Origin: Nitrospirae bacterium GWF2_44_13
GTDB lineage: Bacteria; Nitrospirota; Thermodesulfovibrionia; Thermodesulfovibrionales; UBA1546
DNA length: 43,314 nt
Assembly (NCBI GenBank): GCA_001805105.1
Contig: MHEE01000001.1
Coordinates: 12,231 to 55,544, forward strand
Direction of reading: 5' to 3'
The notes under the pieces: generated by a model
The model's database searches: none
Seen by the model: the letters and a program-made list of their open reading frames with translations, nothing else
Told to the model about the DNA's origin: nothing
Part shown: in pieces, positions 29,265-37,074 of the stretch
How the letters are laid out: the number at the start of each line of letters is the position of its first letter
Numbering within the stretch: position 1 is the stretch's first letter
Translations under genes and position numbers: made by a program

Positions 29265-30583
29265 ATCTGTTTTTCTCCTATGATTATAAACACCGGATTC
29301 AAAGCGCTCATGTGTTTTTTACCGGCAATGCTCTTGGACCTTGATACAGAGAGTTCTGAAACCTCAACTTCAAATCCATTATTTTCAAGATTCTGGACCG
29401 CTTCGTTTAATGTTTCTATTGTAGCGGCATTTATTACGATAATTGCAGTTTGCATTTTGGCGATTAAATCTATTATTTCTTTGAGCTTTCCGCCGCTGCC
29501 TCCGATAAACACCCTGTCAGGCCGAGGAAGATTTAGCAAGGCATCAGGGGCGCCGCCTATTATTATTTCAATATTGACTGCGTCAAATTTAATCCTGTTC
29601 TCTCTGATGTTTTTAATCTGCTCCTTGTCTTTTTCAACGGCAAAAACCTTTATTTCAGGATACAGCCTTGCTGTTTCCACCGATACTGAACCTGATCCCG
29701 CGCCTATGTCCCATAGCACGCCTCTTTGAGGAAGTCTCAGCTTGTGAATGGTTACTGCTCTCACTTCATCTTTAGTTATGAGCCCTCGCGAATGCATAAT
29801 ATCATCCTCTGTTAGTCCAAATCTGACTTCATCTGTCATTGCGGCTTGTCCGCAATCTTTCTTTACGCTTTCGGACAGCTCAGTAGGATCCCCGACAAGC
29901 GGGCATGACATTGATGATGGCTTCTCATTTTTCAGAATAACTACATTCGGTGCTTCAAACGCCATCCTCGCAATCTCTTCAGGAGAAGCTTTTGTAATTT
30001 TTTCATCAGGGTAGCCGAGTTTTTCGCAGACAAACATAATGAGTTGAGAGTTAAGAGGAATTTTTGCAATCTCCGATGGATTATTTTCCTTGTCAGTGAG
30101 GATTGCGATTTTATTATACTGCTGGAGCAAGGCCGGAATATCAGTTATCTTATACGGCAGCCTTCTTCTTTTTTCAGGGTCAGGCCCGCCGTGAAGGCTC
30201 ATTAAAAATGCGTCATCCCATGATTCTTTTATGCGTGAAAATGCTATCTGGATGCTTGATAAATCAGGGATGATATCAACCGCGTCTTTTCCAAATTCCC
30301 TGACTGCCCTTCTGCCGATTCCAAAAAATACGGGATCGCCTGAGGCAAGAAGGGTAATGAATGACGAGGGACGAGTAACGAGTGACGCGTGAATGAATTT
30401 TATTGTTTCATCCACATTATTAATTATTTTTACTTTATCTTTTACTGTCTCATATTCTTCGTATCCCCTAAAGACCTCCGAGAGCCTTTTGGATGCAAGG
30501 ATGATTTCGGAATTCAAAATAATCTCCCGCGCCCTTTTATCAAGTGGCTTATAGCCGATTCCTATGACGTATATTTTACTCAC
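29261..30583 (-). CDS. cobL: CobL: CbiE-CbiT fused precorrin-6Y/7 C5,15-methyltransferase (decarboxylating)
   Basis: 440 residues. Residues 1-about 210 are the CbiE C5-methylase (YVIGIGYKPL, LASGDPVFFGIGRR, DIIPDLSSIQIAF). Residues about 245-440 are the CbiT C15-methylase and decarboxylase, with the SAM-binding motif LWDIGAGSGSVSVE and the FIGGSGGKLKEII segment. Between the domains lies a 77-bp palindromic insert encoding SMSCPLVGDPTELSESVKKD and following residues. Another heptamer repeat encodes HASLVTRPSSF in CbiE. The start overlaps the cobF end by 8 bases. Confidence 0.95.
   Translation of the reverse strand: MSKIYVIGIGYKPLDKRAREIILNSEIILASKRLSEVFRGYEEYETVKDKVKIINNVDETIKFIHASLVTRPSSFITLLASGDPVFFGIGRRAVREFGKDAVDIIPDLSSIQIAFSRIKESWDDAFLMSLHGGPDPEKRRRLPYKITDIPALLQQYNKIAILTDKENNPSEIAKIPLNSQLIMFVCEKLGYPDEKITKASPEEIARMAFEAPNVVILKNEKPSSMSCPLVGDPTELSESVKKDCGQAAMTDEVRFGLTEDDIMHSRGLITKDEVRAVTIHKLRLPQRGVLWDIGAGSGSVSVETARLYPEIKVFAVEKDKEQIKNIRENRIKFDAVNIEIIIGGAPDALLNLPRPDRVFIGGSGGKLKEIIDLIAKMQTAIIVINAATIETLNEAVQNLENNGFEVEVSELSVSRSKSIAGKKHMSALNPVFIIIGEKQI
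29835..29911 (-). repeat. 77-bp palindromic insertion inside cobL
   Basis: Bounded by the inverted ends TGTCAT and ATGACA. It has two internal hairpins: TGCGG/CCGCA near one end and CCCC/CGGG-type pairing around GACAAG at the other. It is read through in frame between the CbiE and CbiT domains. It resembles small non-autonomous palindromic repeats with TGTCAT-type ends found in many bacterial genomes, but I cannot name the family. Confidence 0.7.
30356..30398 (-). repeat. Heptamer repeat in the CbiE domain of cobL
   Basis: Five GACGAGG/GACGAGT/AACGAGT/GACGCGT units. It encodes HASLVTRPSSF just before the conserved LASGDPVF motif. The same unit type occurs at 37284 and 38238. Confidence 0.85.
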
Positions 30584-31337
30584 TCATTTTCCGCCTAAGA
30601 ATATAAGTATCCATTATCCAGCCCTTTTTCCTTTTTGCCTCAATTATGGTCTTTTTGATTTCTTCCTTTGTATCCTTTAATCTGCCTGAAATTAAGATCT
30701 CATCATTGCTGCCAAGATAACCACCCCAATAAATATCAAGATCTTCATCGTCAATAGATTTAAAGCTTACATGCGAATCCAGAACAACTATCATATTTTT
30801 AATCTCTGCTGGATTGTATTCTTTTAGGTGTCTCGCTGTTGTAATTAAGATTGGTTCACTAATGCGATTTAGGGGTATCTTATGTCTTGCCGCTAAGACC
30901 TGAATACTGCTTATCCCCGGAATCACCGTGTAACTGAATTCTACCTTCTTTGATAGCGCTCGCAGCATTTCTAAATGGCCGTCATATAATGCAGGGTCTC
31001 CCCAGACGAGAATGCCACCGCTCTGGTCATCCTTTAGTTCATTTTCTATGAATTCTTCGATAGTGTTGGCCACTTCACCACGCCACTTAGCAACCTCTTC
31101 ATGGTATGCCATACGGCTCCTTTTGCGCACCGGCATCTTCTTTATTACAACTCTATAGCTTCCATGCTTTAGATGTCTTTCTAATATCTCTTTTCTAAGG
31201 CCTAATAGATCCCTGTCCTTCCTTTCGCTCTTTTCAAGAAGCAGAAAAACATCAACCTTTTTTAGTGTCGCAATCGCCTGAATAGTTAGATAATCCTTGC
31301 TGCCAGGACCAATCCCGATAAGGTATATTTTTTTCAT
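30576..31337 (-). CDS. cobF: Precorrin-6A synthase (deacetylating), CobF type
   Basis: Tetrapyrrole methylase (253 residues) with features of CobF, the C-1 methylase of the oxygen-dependent route. It shows IYLIGIGPGSKDYLTIQA, a DLLGLRKEI segment, ILVWGDPALYDGHLEML, VIPGISSIQVLAARHKIPLN, IYWGGYLGSNDEILI, and the C-terminal KKGWIMDTYILRR that is characteristic of CobF. Finding it among CbiG/CbiH/CobL genes is unusual. It may take the place of CbiD, which is not in the window. It has no repeat insertion and overlaps cobL by 8 bases. Confidence 0.9.
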   Translation of the reverse strand: MKKIYLIGIGPGSKDYLTIQAIATLKKVDVFLLLEKSERKDRDLLGLRKEILERHLKHGSYRVVIKKMPVRKRSRMAYHEEVAKWRGEVANTIEEFIENELKDDQSGGILVWGDPALYDGHLEMLRALSKKVEFSYTVIPGISSIQVLAARHKIPLNRISEPILITTARHLKEYNPAEIKNMIVVLDSHVSFKSIDDEDLDIYWGGYLGSNDEILISGRLKDTKEEIKKTIIEAKRKKGWIMDTYILRRKMSE

Positions 31338-31346
31338 TCTTTCACC

Positions 31347-31865
31347 TCAATATTCAATCCCTTTCCTTGCCTTGACGCCTTGCTTAAAGTAATGTTTAAT
31401 CTCCCGCATCTCTGTTACGAGATCCGCCTTTTCTATAAGTTTTTCATCCGCATATCTGCCCGTTATAATGACCTCTGTTTCTAGTGGTTTTTTATCAAGC
31501 AGTTCCAGCACATCGTCAGCGCTAATAACTCCGTAGTGAATAGCAATATTTACCTCATCCAGTATCACCATGTCATACTGCCCGGACAAGAGCGCTTTTT
31601 TTGCATCTTTAAGCCCCTTTTTTGCGGATGCCTTTTCGGATGGAGTAAGGGCTTTTCCCCTCAAAAAACCGGTGCCGTATTGTTTTATGGTTACAAGGTC
31701 TTTAAATCTTTCCAGTGCCTTATGTTCGCTGCATATTCTTCTTTTTACGAACTGCCCAACGAATACCTTAAGACCTGCGCCCATTGCCCTTAGCGCAAGC
31801 CCTAACGCGGCAGTGGTTTTGCCTTTGCTGTTTCCCGTGTAAATATGAATATAACCTTTACGCAT
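31347..31865 (-). CDS. cobO: Cob(I)yrinic acid a,c-diamide adenosyltransferase
   Basis: BtuR/CobO/CobA-type corrinoid adenosyltransferase that makes the Co-adenosyl bond (172 residues). The P-loop GNSKGKTTAALGLALRA follows a YIHIYT strand. VILDEVNIAIHYG is the Walker-B-like segment, and the C-terminus KHYFKQGVKARKGIEY is typical. I use the ATG at 31865 (MRKGYIH), which overlaps the cbpB stop by 8 bases as ATGCGTAA; an in-frame ATG at 31877 would add four residues. No clear ribosome site is seen for either, so translation is probably coupled to cbpB. Confidence 0.94.
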   Translation of the reverse strand: MRKGYIHIYTGNSKGKTTAALGLALRAMGAGLKVFVGQFVKRRICSEHKALERFKDLVTIKQYGTGFLRGKALTPSEKASAKKGLKDAKKALLSGQYDMVILDEVNIAIHYGVISADDVLELLDKKPLETEVIITGRYADEKLIEKADLVTEMREIKHYFKQGVKARKGIEY

Positions 31866-33195
31866 AGCGGTATTCATATTGCATCTGCTGCAGAGAGCCT
31901 TCTCTGAGAAGATATGGCACCTTATCTTCAGATATCAATTTAAAAGCATATCTTATCATCTCCTTGTAAAACTCGCAAAACTCAGCCTTTCTGTACATAT
32001 TACCTCTGGCATACATCTCGGCAGGGCATGGCGAGCCGCATATATGCCTGAAGTCGCAGGCGCTGCATTCATCAATCTTCTCCACAGTCCTTGCCCTGAT
32101 TGTTTTAAACGGCTTGGAGTTCATCGCTTTTTCAATTGATGTCTTGAAGATATTTCCTCCTGAAAATTCCTTGAAGCTGATAAATTCGCCGCAAGGAACC
32201 ATATCGCCGTTTGCAGTGATTGTAAGAAATGTCCTGCCTCCGCCGCAAGGGGAGATGTCACACATCATGCGCCTGGCAGAAGGCGATATTATTGCAAGAA
32301 TAACATTTGCAAAGTTGCCCACAACGATCTGCCTGCCGGATTTTTTTGTCAGATCAATCGCTGTCTCAACGGCCTTTATTAATTCTTTTGCAAACTCCTT
32401 TTCATCCGGCTTCTGTTTCAATGCCTGTTTCTGTGTTACCCGGACAGGGTTTAAGAGTATGCACGGCACTCTTTTCTTATGGAGAAATCTAACATGCTCT
32501 GAAAGCTTTTTGACATTGAATTTTGTGACGGTTGAGATTACATTCAACCCTTCATACCCTTTAAACCAGTCTAAGGCCTGAACAGCTTTCTCAAAATTCC
32601 CCCCGCCTTTTGCAGTTACCCTCGAGAGATTGTTTGTACGGGCATCCGGCGCGTCAAGCGATATGCCTACGCCTATCCTGTATTTTTTCATAAACTCCGC
32701 GTCTCTTTTTTCAAGCAGAAGTGTATTTGTCTGAATGCCGAAAACAAATCTATTGCTGAACTTTTTTATGGCGTCAAACAGTATGTCTTTCACCAACAGC
32801 GGTTCAGCGGCATGAAAGACGATTACGGGTTTTTTTCTTGAATCTTTGAAATGTACTGCAATCTTTTCCAATGCAGTGTTGAGTTCCTTCCCTGTCATCT
32901 GTGTGCCCTGTTTTCTTATTTTGGCAGGGATATAACAGTATGTGCAGTTTGCATTACATCTGTCAGTAGGGTCTATGTATACGCAGTTTAAATCCGCATT
33001 GAACCTGAAATCGTGAAGCTCTTTATCGAGATGAGCCTTTTTATTTTTGTACAGCGTTATCAGGTCTTCCGGCAGCAGGAAATCCCCATTGTCATTTTTT
33101 GGCGCAAGCCCCCAGAATACATTGTCGGCATCGAGGACAAGCTTCCAGTCAGTGTTAATATCAGAAAAAGAAAGGCCCCTTTGATTTTCCTTCAT
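31858..33195 (-). CDS. cbpB: Radical SAM/SPASM peptide-modifying enzyme, CbpB-like
   Basis: 445-residue radical SAM protein. The 4Fe-4S/SAM motif CxxxCxxC is DRCNANCTYC (Cys80, Cys84, Cys87). Further radical SAM core segments are VIFHAAEPLL and FGIQTNTLLL. The C-terminal SPASM-type region has clustered cysteines (CDISPCGGG, MVPCGEF, CSACDFRHICGSPCPAEM, FCEF), consistent with auxiliary clusters as in anSME and peptide maturases. A partner peptide gene lies 96 bases upstream. This matches my recollection of the CbpA/CbpB pair near cobalt/cobalamin genes (family label by memory). The ribosome site AAGGAGAT is strong. The chemistry is unknown. Confidence 0.88.
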   Translation of the reverse strand: MKENQRGLSFSDINTDWKLVLDADNVFWGLAPKNDNGDFLLPEDLITLYKNKKAHLDKELHDFRFNADLNCVYIDPTDRCNANCTYCYIPAKIRKQGTQMTGKELNTALEKIAVHFKDSRKKPVIVFHAAEPLLVKDILFDAIKKFSNRFVFGIQTNTLLLEKRDAEFMKKYRIGVGISLDAPDARTNNLSRVTAKGGGNFEKAVQALDWFKGYEGLNVISTVTKFNVKKLSEHVRFLHKKRVPCILLNPVRVTQKQALKQKPDEKEFAKELIKAVETAIDLTKKSGRQIVVGNFANVILAIISPSARRMMCDISPCGGGRTFLTITANGDMVPCGEFISFKEFSGGNIFKTSIEKAMNSKPFKTIRARTVEKIDECSACDFRHICGSPCPAEMYARGNMYRKAEFCEFYKEMIRYAFKLISEDKVPYLLREGSLQQMQYEYRYA

Positions 33196-33223
33196 ATGTA
33201 TATATCTCCTTTTAATTTTTTAG

Positions 33224-33277
33224 AGAGGCAAAACAGCCCCCGCAATAACTAATTATTGCGGAAGTTGTTCTGCCTCT
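33224..33277 (-). other. Long hairpin between cbpA and cbpB
   Basis: Imperfect stem: AGAGGCA pairs TGCCTCT at the base, AACA pairs TGTT, and a perfect CCGCAATAA / TTATTGCGG upper stem encloses loop TTAG. No T-run follows on the minus strand, so it is probably an mRNA stabiliser, a processing site or a partial terminator. It would let the peptide gene be expressed above its enzyme. Confidence 0.75.
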
Positions 33278-33291
33278 GAGGCAGCATCATT

Positions 33292-33432
33292 TTATAACGG
33301 CATTTTCTTGTTCGGAACATCTCCATACATCACAAAGTGGGTCAAACCGTTAGCTGTCTTTGCGCATTTGAGATGGTACGATATGACGCTGGCCCTTGCC
33401 TTCTTTTTAGCCCTGTTTTTGGGACTATTCAA
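33292..33432 (-). CDS. cbpA: Small precursor peptide, CbpA-like, substrate of the radical SAM enzyme
   Basis: 46-codon gene, TTG start at 33432, preceded by AGGAGGTGAAGAAAT, a near-perfect ribosome site with proper spacing. The peptide begins LNSPKNRAKKKARAS (read as Met-start), with a strongly basic first third. The second part is VISYHLKCAKTANGLTHFVM followed by YGDVPNKKMPL. There is a single Cys (residue 23), His20, His32 and a central Gly29-Leu-Thr. It lies between cbiO (20 bases) and cbpB, in the position of a precursor peptide. The resemblance to CbpA is from memory and needs a profile search. No signal peptide or leader cleavage motif is evident. Confidence 0.78.
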   Translation of the reverse strand: MNSPKNRAKKKARASVISYHLKCAKTANGLTHFVMYGDVPNKKMPL

Positions 33433-33452
33433 ATTTCTTCACCTCCTTTCAT

Positions 33453-34298
33453 TCACGATCTGAGAGTTTTCAGTATTTCTCTTCTTGCCTCACCGATGGT
33501 GAGAGGGATTTTTCCAAACGGCATATTGTCTTCATGCCTTAGTTTGTATATTAATTCCGCGATCTGGGGAAGCCGCAACTTCACATTCGCCATCTCATCA
33601 GGCGCTGTAAACACCTCCTCGGGGATACCGCTTCTAACAATATGGCCCTTGCTTAATATATAAAGCCTGTCAAGAAACAAGGGTACAAGGTCCACGCTAT
33701 GCGTGGCCATAACAACAGTTACGCGCTTCTCCTTATTGAGCTTTGTCAGCAGATTCATCATTTTATATTCTCCCATGGGATCTAATCCGGCTGTAGGCTC
33801 ATCAAGCAGCAGTATCTCATGCCCCATTGCCAGCAGGCCTGCAATGCAAATCCTCTTTTTCTGCCCGAAACTGAGATGATGGATAGACTTCTTTGCGTAT
33901 CCTTGCATATCAACATCCTTAAGGGCGTTGTTTATACGGGTGACGACCTCATCTTCCCTGAATCCCATGTTTATCGGGCCGAATGCCACATCCTCAAATA
34001 CAGTAGGAGCGAAAAGCTGGTCATCCGGATTTTGAAAGACGAGGCCAACCTTACTGTAAATCTCTTTTGGGGAAAGTTTTTTTATGTCAGCCCCGTCGAG
34101 ATAAGCGCTGCCTTCAAAATCTTTCACTAAGCCGTCCATTATTTTAAGCAATGTTGTTTTCCCCGAGCCGTTTGAGCCAAGTATGCCGATAAATTCTCCA
34201 TGCGAGATATTAACCGCGATATCAGACAATGCCTGTGTTCCGTCCGGATATTTAAATGAATTTATTTGAACAGACAATCTTATCTTCAAATCTGCCAT
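33453..34298 (-). CDS. cbiO: Cobalt ECF transporter ATPase
   Basis: Energy-coupling ATPase of the CbiMNQO cobalt importer (281 residues). Walker A GSNGSGKTT, Q-loop FQNPDDQLFAPTVFEDVAFG (the NPDDQ form typical of ECF ATPases), signature LSFGQKKR, and Walker B ILLLDEPTAGLDP are present. The start overlaps the cbiQ stop by 13 bases. It ends 20 bases before the cbpA start. Confidence 0.96.
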   Translation of the reverse strand: MADLKIRLSVQINSFKYPDGTQALSDIAVNISHGEFIGILGSNGSGKTTLLKIMDGLVKDFEGSAYLDGADIKKLSPKEIYSKVGLVFQNPDDQLFAPTVFEDVAFGPINMGFREDEVVTRINNALKDVDMQGYAKKSIHHLSFGQKKRICIAGLLAMGHEILLLDEPTAGLDPMGEYKMMNLLTKLNKEKRVTVVMATHSVDLVPLFLDRLYILSKGHIVRSGIPEEVFTAPDEMANVKLRLPQIAELIYKLRHEDNMPFGKIPLTIGEARREILKTLRS

Positions 34299-35038
34299 AC
34301 AAGCCCCATTGCAAATACTAATAAAATTGAGACTGCTACTTCCAAAAACCTGAACGGTTTGTGTTTCAACATCGGGATGTTGCCGTCATATCCGCGTTGA
34401 AGCATTGCAGTTGTTGTGTTCTGGCTGTGCTCAAACGCCTTGAGTGTCAGTGAGCCTGTCAAGGTTCCGAAGGAGCTTAATCCCCGCTTCATATTGGAAT
34501 AACCAAGACGGTTTTTCTGTGCGTTATAGATGACCATCGCATCTTCAAAAAGCACAAAGATATATCTGTAGGCAAACAGCGATATTTCTATAAGGCCCTT
34601 TGGAATTTTAAGCCATGACAACCCTGCCATTATCTCTGTAAATGGGGTAGAAAAACCCAATAAAGCGACAATAGAGACAGCCCCTAAAATCCTGCTGCCG
34701 ATTCTCAGTCCGTCCATAAGCCCGTCTTTGTGTCCTGTTATGGTGATGCCCCACATCTTTATTGAGAACATAGTCTCCTGTCCTGAAAACAGGAGTTTAA
34801 GCAATATCACAACAGATGCGATAAACACAGGCTCTGAAAATCTCAGAAGAAATACCTTAAAAGGTATCTCCATCCTTATACAAAGGCAAAGGCTTATGCC
34901 TAATATGAGCAGAGGGAACACAAGCCCTTTATAGCTCAATACCATTGCTAAAACAAAGAGGCTGACGCCGAGTTTTAGCCTTGCGTCAACCTGCGAAAGC
35001 AAGTGGTCTTTTTTGAAATATTCGCTAAATATTTCCAT
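34286..35038 (-). CDS. cbiQ: Cobalt ECF transporter T component
   Basis: Transmembrane coupling subunit (250 residues, about five to six hydrophobic helices). It has the N-terminal amphipathic start and DARLKLGVSLFVL typical of CbiQ. Coupling-helix motifs of the Ala-Arg-Gly type are represented by NAQKNRLGYSNM and MLQRGYDGNIP (QRG instead of ARG). It overlaps cbiN (13 bases) and cbiO (13 bases). Confidence 0.94.
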   Translation of the reverse strand: MEIFSEYFKKDHLLSQVDARLKLGVSLFVLAMVLSYKGLVFPLLILGISLCLCIRMEIPFKVFLLRFSEPVFIASVVILLKLLFSGQETMFSIKMWGITITGHKDGLMDGLRIGSRILGAVSIVALLGFSTPFTEIMAGLSWLKIPKGLIEISLFAYRYIFVLFEDAMVIYNAQKNRLGYSNMKRGLSSFGTLTGSLTLKAFEHSQNTTTAMLQRGYDGNIPMLKHKPFRFLEVAVSILLVFAMGLVWQI

Positions 35039-35360
35039 ATTCTTTATTCTTTACTTTTTGTCTTTTATTTCCTATCAGTTCCTTCCAGTAATATCCTGCT
35101 ACAAAACCCCCAACCGAGCCTGCAAGCAGAAAGACAAAAAGAAGCAAGTCGCCCTGGTCTGTGTTTATGAACGGCTCCCTTGCCTCCCTGCCGTGCTCCT
35201 TTGCGAATTTTTCTATAACTGATTCGTCCACGCCGGTCCATTTGCCTTCTTCAGCAAATACGGCTGTGAAAGGCAACAGAAGGTAGCAAATCAGCACAAA
35301 AAATAATAAAAAAATCACTCCAAAACTTTGAACTTTGAACTTTGAACTTTGAATTTTCAT
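35025..35360 (-). CDS. cbiN: CbiN-like small component of the cobalt transporter
   Basis: 111-residue protein with two membrane helices around a short extracytoplasmic loop. The loop and second helix, GVDESVIEKFAKEHG then DQGDLLLFVFLLAGSVGGFVAGYYWKEL (written in two parts here), follow the CbiN pattern of an acidic loop and a SLLFALQAA-like helix. Sequence match is weak, so position between cbiM and cbiQ carries much of the call. The N-terminus MKIQSSKFKVQS is encoded by a heptamer repeat and is identical for ten residues to that of CbiM. The start overlaps the cbiM stop (ATGA). Confidence 0.75.
   Translation of the reverse strand: MKIQSSKFKVQSFGVIFLLFFVLICYLLLPFTAVFAEEGKWTGVDESVIEKFAKEHGREAREPFINTDQGDLLLFVFLLAGSVGGFVAGYYWKELIGNKRQKVKNKEYGNI
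35325..35360 (-). repeat. Heptamer repeat forming the cbiN start
   Basis: On the minus strand, four AAAGTTC/AAAATTC units. The array includes the bases at and directly after the ATG, so the first dozen codons of cbiN are repeat sequence. Confidence 0.88.
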
Positions 35361-36121
35361 ATAGCCTCCCCGGGTTTTAAAACACGCATTTTCACAAGAA
35401 GGTCGGGGCGCTTTTTATAAAGCAGAACAACCATGCCTGCTGTCATTGCACCTTCAAGGATTCCCAGCGGAAGCTGAGTCGGAATAAATGCGATAAGTAT
35501 CTTTGTGAATAGAGGCATGAATGCTGAATCACCTTTTATGCCTGATGCAAGCTCGACAGATGTTGTCAAATATGTTGCCCAGTCTGCAAAGAGACCTGCC
35601 ATGAATCCTGAAACTGCAATATTCACCTTTATCGAGCGTAACGCCCTAAAAGTCAAGAACCCTGCAAATGAGCCCATAACGCCCATAGAAACTATGTCTG
35701 CGCCCCATGTGCTTAAGCCTCCGTGCGCAAGGAAGAGTGCCTGAATCAACAGAGCAACTGCTGTAATCAATATGCTAATAGCAGGACCAAGGAGTATGCC
35801 TGATATGCCTGTCCCGCATGGATGTGAGCAGGTGCCTGCAGTCGGTACCGGTATCGGCATGCACGAGATTATAAATACAACAGCAGCCATTAATCCGACG
35901 AGGGGCTTAAATGAAAGATCAACCGAAGAGAGCTTCTTCAGCTTATATAATCCCCATGCCACAAATGGAACCGCGATAGCAGACCAGAGCAAGGCCCAGT
36001 TAAAAGGCAGTATGCCCTCAGAGATATGCATTGCATGAGCATTAGAAGCAGTGAATAGCGAATAGTGAACAGTGAACAGTGAAAGAATAAAAACCTTGAA
36101 TTTTGAACTTTGAATTTTCAT
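35357..36121 (-). CDS. cbiM: Cobalt ECF transporter substrate-binding membrane component
   Basis: S-component that binds Co(II) (254 residues, multi-pass). The mature N-terminus MHISEGILP contains the metal-binding Met-His motif that is essential in CbiM. Other signatures are PVPTAGTCSHPCGTGISGILLGP, HGGLSTWGADIVSMGV and THL-like substitutions downstream. Before MHISEG stands a signal-peptide-like region of about 30 residues ending SNAHA, mostly encoded by a composite repeat (MKIQSSKFKV and LFTVHYSLFT). The ATG at 36121 has a strong ribosome site, AGGAGGAATT. Confidence 0.95.
   Translation of the reverse strand: MKIQSSKFKVFILSLFTVHYSLFTASNAHAMHISEGILPFNWALLWSAIAVPFVAWGLYKLKKLSSVDLSFKPLVGLMAAVVFIISCMPIPVPTAGTCSHPCGTGISGILLGPAISILITAVALLIQALFLAHGGLSTWGADIVSMGVMGSFAGFLTFRALRSIKVNIAVSGFMAGLFADWATYLTTSVELASGIKGDSAFMPLFTKILIAFIPTQLPLGILEGAMTAGMVVLLYKKRPDLLVKMRVLKPGEAI
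36049..36121 (-). repeat. Composite heptamer repeat forming the CbiM signal region
   Basis: On the minus strand: AAAATTC/AAAGTTC units, core GGTTTTTATTCTTT, then five TCACTGT/TCACTAT/TCGCTAT-type units. It begins at the start codon of cbiM and encodes most of the N-terminal extension. Its first arm is the same as the array at the start of cbiN. Confidence 0.9.
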
Positions 36122-36129
36122 AATTCCTC

Positions 36130-36906
36130 CTAAAATCTCCATGCAATGCCTGCAAGGATTGCATAATCTGTTTCTGGTTTATTAAGGCCTCCCCTGATAC
36201 CAAAATCTATATCAAAGTTCTTAGATATGGAATAAATCAAACCGCCCAAAATAAATGCAGGGTCTATGTTTGATGTCTTATCAGGATTCCTTTCTGTGCC
36301 TATATTCGCAACTGCCTTGAGGTTTTTAACAACCTCAACCTCTGATGCAAGGGATATATGCCATATCTCTATCCTCTCGTTGTTTCTGTTTTCATTTCTC
36401 TTGTATCCCAAGTTGAAATGAAATGCCCACGGCTCTGCTTCCTTTGTTGTAATAAAAAAGAGGCTGTATGCTGTTCTGCCTGTGCCCAATCCCCTCTTCC
36501 TGTTTCCTGTTGGAAGAGTGATTCCAGGTTTTAAGGCAAGGCTTAAGCCGTCTTTTTCAAAAAATTTCCACTTTGACTCTATGGATATATCAGAGATTCC
36601 GTCCTCTGCTTTTGTTGACTCCGGTTCGGTGTCTGTGGCAGGGGTCTTTGTCCGTATATACTGATACGGGATGTCAAGAATAATGTCCATATTCTCTGAT
36701 GCTCCGTATGTTAGTGTTGTTGCCATCTTGGTAGTATTTTTTTCATCGTCAACACCATATTTCTCATTTCCATGCTCTCCATTAACCTCAAGCTGATATT
36801 TCCCCTTCCCCTGTGTGCCTGTGTCGTCTGTTATTAAGGGGTGTGCAGCAAATGCAACTTCACACCACAATATCACAATAACTGCTGTAAAGTTTTTTTT
36901 AAACAT
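36130..36906 (-). CDS. Outer-membrane transporter-like protein under B12 riboswitch control
   Basis: 258 residues with a signal peptide (cleavage near EVAFA) and a beta-barrel pattern. The mature start AHPLITDDTGTQGKGKYQLEV and the strands SENMDIILDIPYQYI and LKPGITLPTGNRKRGLG resemble the MetA-pathway/DUF3187-like outer-membrane transporter family; the C-terminal strand ends GIAWRF with terminal Phe. The ATG at 36906 is preceded by AAAGGAGAAAAA, better than the ATG 15 bases upstream. It lies between a cobalamin riboswitch and cbiM. A role in cobalt or corrinoid passage through the outer membrane is inferred from context; no TonB box is seen. Confidence 0.82.
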   Translation of the reverse strand: MFKKNFTAVIVILWCEVAFAAHPLITDDTGTQGKGKYQLEVNGEHGNEKYGVDDEKNTTKMATTLTYGASENMDIILDIPYQYIRTKTPATDTEPESTKAEDGISDISIESKWKFFEKDGLSLALKPGITLPTGNRKRGLGTGRTAYSLFFITTKEAEPWAFHFNLGYKRNENRNNERIEIWHISLASEVEVVKNLKAVANIGTERNPDKTSNIDPAFILGGLIYSISKNFDIDFGIRGGLNKPETDYAILAGIAWRF

Positions 36907-36931
36907 TTTTTCTCCTTTCATCGAGGTTTTT

Positions 36932-37074
36932 GGAATGAGAGGTCTCCTGACTTAGGGCTGCCTACTTGCTAACCTTCCCATCTCGATTTATCGGGACAGT
37001 GGCTTAATAGCGTTCGTTCCCATCACAGTTGCGGAACAGCAGAGGATTTTCACCCCTTTCCGATTCATCATTCC
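36932..37074 (-). ncRNA. Cobalamin riboswitch
   Basis: Minus-strand leader with the canonical B12 box AAGTCAGGAGACC (36953-36941), core elements GGGGTGAAAATCC, GCCACTG (37003-36997) and GGGAAGG (36979-36973), and a closing P1 stem GGAATGA/TCATTCC. The start codon of the OM protein lies only 26 bases past P1 and there is no terminator, so control is most likely at translation initiation. Target: the OM protein and probably cbiMNQO and genes behind them. Confidence 0.96.

Follow-up and report, generated by a model that had tools for sequence, protein, structure and literature searches.

A long-form CbpA-like peptide paired with the radical SAM/SPASM enzyme CbpB in a cobalamin operon of Nitrospirota, and its probable service in corrinoid metabolism

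Enzymes carrying a SPASM domain are known to make peptide-derived redox factors, as in the conversion of PqqA to PQQ and of MftA to mycofactocin, while the substrate of the thioether SCIFF maturase CteB has six cysteines, as the name of its family says. The ranthipeptide maturase PapB employs a cysteine thiol in a radical cross-link, joining Cys to Asp/Glu within CX3D/E (PMC9413430). The pair CbpA/CbpB, covered by the models TIGR04164 (cobo_pep) and TIGR04163 (rSAM_cobopep), represents a kind already known but uncharacterised: no paper naming TIGR04163, TIGR04164 or CbpB was found in the searched literature (subscription journals lying mostly outside the search), in line with the first-pass annotation of this DNA, which had taken the pair as uncharacterised. 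What is new here is a long, so far unrecognised form of CbpA. We consider it rather probable that the CbpA precursor is matured by CbpB into a modified peptide which is produced under B12 shortage and works in corrinoid (vitamin B12) metabolism.

The window, i.e., the whole analysed stretch of 43,314 nucleotides, carries the pair in an operon with the order riboswitch, outer-membrane barrel gene, cbiM-N-Q-O, cbpA, cbpB, cobO, cobF and more cob genes, so that its initial placement inside a cobalt/cobalamin operon holds, the whole cbiMNQO-cbpAB-cobO-cobF array standing behind a cobalamin riboswitch. Features are given below in the direction of transcription.

36942..37061, minus strand: cobalamin riboswitch (RF00174, 66.5 bits), ahead of cbiMNQO-cbpAB-cobO
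36130..36921, minus strand: outer-membrane barrel-like protein (PF13557), operon head after the riboswitch
35357..36142, minus strand: cbiM
35025..35360, minus strand: cbiN-like small membrane protein, named by position (no NCBIfam match at E <= 1e-30, no Pfam match)
34286..35038, minus strand: cbiQ
33453..34298, minus strand: cbiO-type ECF ATPase
33440..33447, minus strand: Shine-Dalgarno AGGAGGTG, read directly, just ahead of the cbpA start
33292..33432, minus strand: cbpA-like gene, long form, candidate for a precursor peptide (46 aa, TTG start)
33295..33384, minus strand: conserved 30-codon core I17-L46 of cbpA, with C23, G29, L30 and H32 invariant in all forms
33224..33277, minus strand: strong RNA hairpin in the cbpA-cbpB gap (z -6.4)
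31858..33195, minus strand: cbpB, radical SAM/SPASM enzyme of 445 aa (TIGR04163)
31347..31877, minus strand: cobO/cobA corrinoid adenosyltransferase, with a 20-base overlap with the cbpB end
30576..31337, minus strand: cobF, precorrin-6A synthase (TIGR02434, 295.6 bits)

The TTG-started frame of 46 residues with one cysteine, two histidines and a ribosome site, separated by 20 bases from cbiO and by 96 bases from the radical SAM gene, is exactly as it had been described at first reading. Its translation is MNSPKNRAKKKARASVISYHLKCAKTANGLTHFVMYGDVPNKKMPL, where the single cysteine is C23 and the histidines are H20 and H32, and GAAAGGAGGTG stands upstream of cbpA again in many relatives. Residues 1-16 form a Lys/Arg-rich leader, which among relatives is basic, variable and tolerant of insertions; the near relatives L041, L043 and L102 have in-frame insertions here (..SETRLYEK.. 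and similar) with the core unchanged. The first-pass annotation had made its reading dependent on a conserved peptide at this position in relatives and on protein-level constraint in the 46-codon frame, and both were found. Relatives of the peptide lie directly ahead of the same enzyme at 85 loci with 65 distinct cores, and for the 56 cores having the 30-codon form pS is 0.82 and pN 0.09 (ratio 0.11), base entropy at codon positions 1, 2 and 3 is 0.35, 0.18 and 1.29, and none of these cores has a stop in frame 0, as compared to 56 and 34 of the 56 cores with a stop in the sense frames shifted by 1 and 2. Thus the frame is a genuine gene, and its product is under strong purifying selection. That it could be a chance reading frame or the leader peptide of an RNA regulator might be proposed from its shortness and from the strong hairpin following it, but conserved is the peptide sequence rather than the hairpin sequence, and this, along with the pN/pS value over 56 distinct cores and the near-perfect pairing with CbpB, leaves such an origin a negligible probability; a chance frame as such is ruled out by the pN/pS value and the stop-free frame 0.

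The first-pass annotation makes no mention of the hairpin in the 96-base gap of the window. Strong hairpins (z < -3 versus shuffles, median -5.95) were revealed in 53 of the 58 distinct long-form cbpA-cbpB gaps, and they are unrelated in sequence between genomes, looking as if position and not sequence had been selected. The element may act by attenuation or stabilisation, holding the peptide above the enzyme.

Attribution of the peptide to a described family depends on the profile used. The first-pass annotation had pointed to a CbpA/CbpB family pair and suggested comparison with both models: the enzyme matched as expected and the peptide proved to be its conserved partner, but the peptide itself gave no match to TIGR04164 (cut-off 35 bits) at E up to 10, and the genome search with this model returned nothing at the window cbpA, its best hit being 11 bits at an unrelated place. 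With CbpA profiles free of long-form bacterial sequences, the window frame nevertheless ranks first among 1216 window frames, with E of 0.0018 for the short-form profile only, 3e-6 when Bathyarchaeota are added and 1.8e-10 with Hydrothermarchaeum as well. Peptides of short-form genomes reach 46-54 bits on TIGR04164, their CbpB being 41-44% identical to the window enzyme, and the archaeal ones (Hydrothermarchaeum, Bathyarchaeota) 19.9-31.3 bits. The window peptide shares with the short form its place directly before cbpB and the motif common to all CbpA forms, C-x5-G-L-[STA]-H-[FY], with C23, G29, L30 and H32 invariant across Nitrospirota, Planctomycetota and archaea; it differs in the longer C-terminus (YGDVPNKKMPL; YGDVPKKKMPL as the long-form extension beyond the common core) and in its belonging to a Nitrospirota/Omnitrophota set, which is bridged to the short form by the Hydrothermarchaeum and Bathyarchaeota sequences. 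As the TIGR04164 cut-off is missed, the peptide is named from profile comparison a divergent long-form CbpA homologue overlooked by the current model, and not a member by that model. A long-form profile widens the reach of CbpA annotation.

Assignment of the enzyme is more direct, since it scores 505.9 bits on TIGR04163 against the curated equivalog cut-off of 375, which identifies it by sequence as CbpB. When 31 sequences sharing 39-95% identity with the window enzyme are aligned, the cysteines of the radical SAM motif CX3CX2C (C80, C84 and C87) are invariant together with eight more in the C-terminal part (312, 317, 335, 377, 380, 386, 390 and 407). Seven of the latter compose the SPASM pattern C317-x12-G330-x4-C335, C377-x2-C380-x5-C386-x3-C390, C407, to which C312 is added, and Pfam SPASM gives 42 bits; such a pattern is consistent with a SPASM domain bearing two fully ligated auxiliary clusters. 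The AlphaFold2 model (pLDDT 89.9), in which the N-terminal 66 residues fold into three strands and one long helix, has its best fold matches in CteB, anSME, ChlB with leader, TigE and SuiB, all of which modify peptides or proteins. CteB (PDB 5wgg/5why), acting on a peptide substrate, is both the top fold match (E 8.6e-21) and the top sequence match among solved structures, with likeness in the radical SAM core and SPASM domain, but its identity to CbpB is 18%, and in place of six cysteines in its substrate CbpA has one invariant cysteine. PapB is the second-best NCBIfam match (E 2.8e-38), though CbpB, whose 132 bits stay below the cut-off of 340, is no member of this family; besides, the invariant cysteine of CbpA lacks the Cys-X3-Asp/Glu spacing, as C23 in the window peptide is followed by AKTANGLTHFVMYG and the first acidic residue is D38. 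The small number of residues invariant in all forms, just four, would also suit a CbpA acting as small activator, scaffold or sensor of CbpB, with the enzyme modifying some other molecule, possibly a corrin intermediate. We regard such a role as very improbable given that the nearest enzymes by model and by fold modify peptides or proteins, that a variable basic leader and a conserved C-terminus make a precursor-like architecture, and that the structure model of isolated CbpA is unstructured and of low confidence (pLDDT 58).

Peptide and enzyme co-occur almost perfectly. Among 80 genomes, CbpA profile matches were detected in 45 of 46 CbpB-positive and in 1 of 34 CbpB-negative ones (Fisher p about 4e-20, phylogeny uncorrected), a count which tests absence elsewhere more than presence, since the profile was trained on members. 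The only CbpB-positive genome having no CbpA match, G296, has an N-terminally incomplete CbpB lying in a stretch with assembly gaps (200 N). The sole candidate for an orphan peptide, in the CbpB-negative genome G130, is explained by the contig, whose final base is also the last one of the cbpA match. Most cases of CbpB with no adjoining CbpA are explained likewise: in genome G316, to which locus L023 belongs, cbpA sits on a different contig (G316:C86), L073 appears to be locus L023 again, and L042, L064, L087, L097 and L098 are cut by contig ends, leaving unexplained only L084 and a partial second copy, L100. The family ranges over Nitrospirota, Omnitrophota, Planctomycetota and some archaea; in the phylum of genome G407 no CbpB match was found among 199 genomes, a negative that carries no information.

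Bacterial cbpAB units lie within B12 biosynthesis or salvage operons or stand alone behind a cobalamin riboswitch, and their immediate neighbours vary, including CbiO, CbiD, CbiGH, CobB, cobD, CobT/CobS and CbiZ-BtuFCD. Short-form cbpA follows the riboswitch directly in four genomes (G021, G172, G522 and, alone at the contig end, G130), which suggests riboswitch control of cbpA; in G209 no riboswitch, not even a weak one, precedes it. CbiM-family proteins are present in 39 of 46 CbpB-positive and 31 of 34 CbpB-negative genomes (p = 0.5), CbiC in 39 and 19 (p = 0.006) and CbiD in 35 and 13 (p = 0.001), respectively, these p values being only indicative for related genomes and a CbpB-negative set hand-picked for completeness. 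Carriers of the pair or its peptide lacking both CbiC and CbiD, as judged on draft genomes, are G209 (96% complete), G244 (100%), G328 and G160 (97-98%) and G130 (98%). Where their surroundings were examined, the pair belongs to operons of salvage type, with the gene order cobT-cbpA-cbpB-cobS-cobC in G244, cobT-cobS-cobQ-cbiB-cobD-CbiX-like-cbpAB-CbiE-like in G328 and cbpAB-Dph6-like-CbiZ-BtuF-BtuC-BtuD-cobA-cobU in G209. The last operon (L110, 1304-9439) runs in one direction through short-form cbpAB, a Dph6-like ATP pyrophosphatase, CbiZ, BtuFCD, CobA and CobU, and contains two more radical SAM proteins. In genomes lacking CbiC and CbiD, cbpAB is flanked or followed by CbiX-like and CbiE-like genes and by one for an HD-domain protein (L125, 7763-11297; L124, 8064-9990), and in L124 the first two genes are fused, i.e., ring-synthesis enzymes occur in apparent salvagers.

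This distribution bears on the role between CbiMNQO and cobO/cobF which had been supposed at first reading, and as a general one it is not sustained: CbiM is unassociated with the pair, neighbours vary and the pair persists where CbiC and CbiD are lacking. A dedicated link to CbiMNQO was likewise rejected as a general rule by the CbiM counts. An alternative would be a modified peptide working as cobalt-ion chaperone or metallophore, which takes up the Co2+ brought in by CbiMNQO and transfers it to the chelatase CbiX. It would agree with cbpAB directly after cbiMNQO in the window and in most long-form loci, with the short form between CbiC and CbiM in G469, and with conserved Cys, His and Asp in the long-form core. 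We nevertheless hold it unlikely, as CbiM shows no association, seven CbpB genomes have no CbiM-family match, the pair is kept in salvage-type genomes devoid of CbiC and CbiD and in stand-alone riboswitch units, and a cysteine consumed by a cross-link could not bind metal as thiolate. Neither cobalt import nor corrin ring synthesis, taken as the sole function, accounts for the salvage operons, while corrinoid handling does; persistence of the pair in these operons and the lack of association with CbiM thus favour corrinoid metabolism over cobalt-ion transport as its general function, and the specific role indicated by the riboswitches and the salvage operons is that of a modified peptide in corrinoid handling. 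Against corrinoid service it may be said that many B12-making relatives do without the pair, CbiC being present in 19 of 34 CbpB-negative genomes, so that the pathway does not depend on it, and that at the archaeal loci L090-L092 neither B12 genes among the neighbours examined nor a riboswitch were found. In Hydrothermarchaeum profundi (L090, 5831-10512), cbpAB adjoins dsrC and lies near dsrK, not B12 genes.

The modification of the peptide and its molecular role we infer as follows. CbpA (33292-33432) would be a ribosomally made precursor and CbpB its radical SAM/SPASM maturase, which by means of the 5'-deoxyadenosyl radical and two auxiliary FeS clusters may introduce an intramolecular cross-link into the C-terminal core, most probably one that ties the C23 sulfur to a residue close by. 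The Lys-rich N-terminus and the hairpin could provide for enzyme binding and for dosage of peptide over enzyme. The mature peptide presumably stays in the cell, because no exporter or dedicated protease recurs beside cbpAB. In the most speculative step, it would hold or hand over a corrinoid, with H32 as candidate axial ligand, or aid reduction or adenosylation. Tentatively, it is possible that the pair yields a cross-linked ribosomal peptide dedicated to B12 metabolism, made upon B12 scarcity by bacterial makers and mere salvagers alike and acting as a reducing aid or as a small carrier of corrinoids, in which His32 would be the axial ligand. Little is understood of corrinoid traffic inside cells or of the physiological reductant used in adenosylation, so a peptide factor at this point would be of wide interest. 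The proposal that the product is a peptide-derived redox factor, supplying the electrons with which Co(II) is reduced to Co(I) ahead of adenosylation, accords with the capacity of SPASM enzymes to produce such factors, with the overlap in the window between cbpB and cobO, which encodes the adenosyltransferase, with the presence of cobA in the G209 operon, and with the need for this reduction step in B12-making and B12-salvaging cells; however, neither protease nor oxidoreductase recurs beside cbpAB and adjacency to cobO is limited to part of Nitrospirota, making it improbable.

Two more traits of the operon deserve mention. CobF of the window sits in an otherwise CbiX/CbiM-type B12 operon, and the CobF-positive genomes (8 among 80) are all lacking CbiD, so that one C1-methylating enzyme apparently replaces the other. 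For the PF13557 barrel-like gene between the cobalamin riboswitch and cbiM, about a dozen relatives have a related gene in this position, and its product may possibly serve as an outer-membrane route for cobalt or corrinoid.
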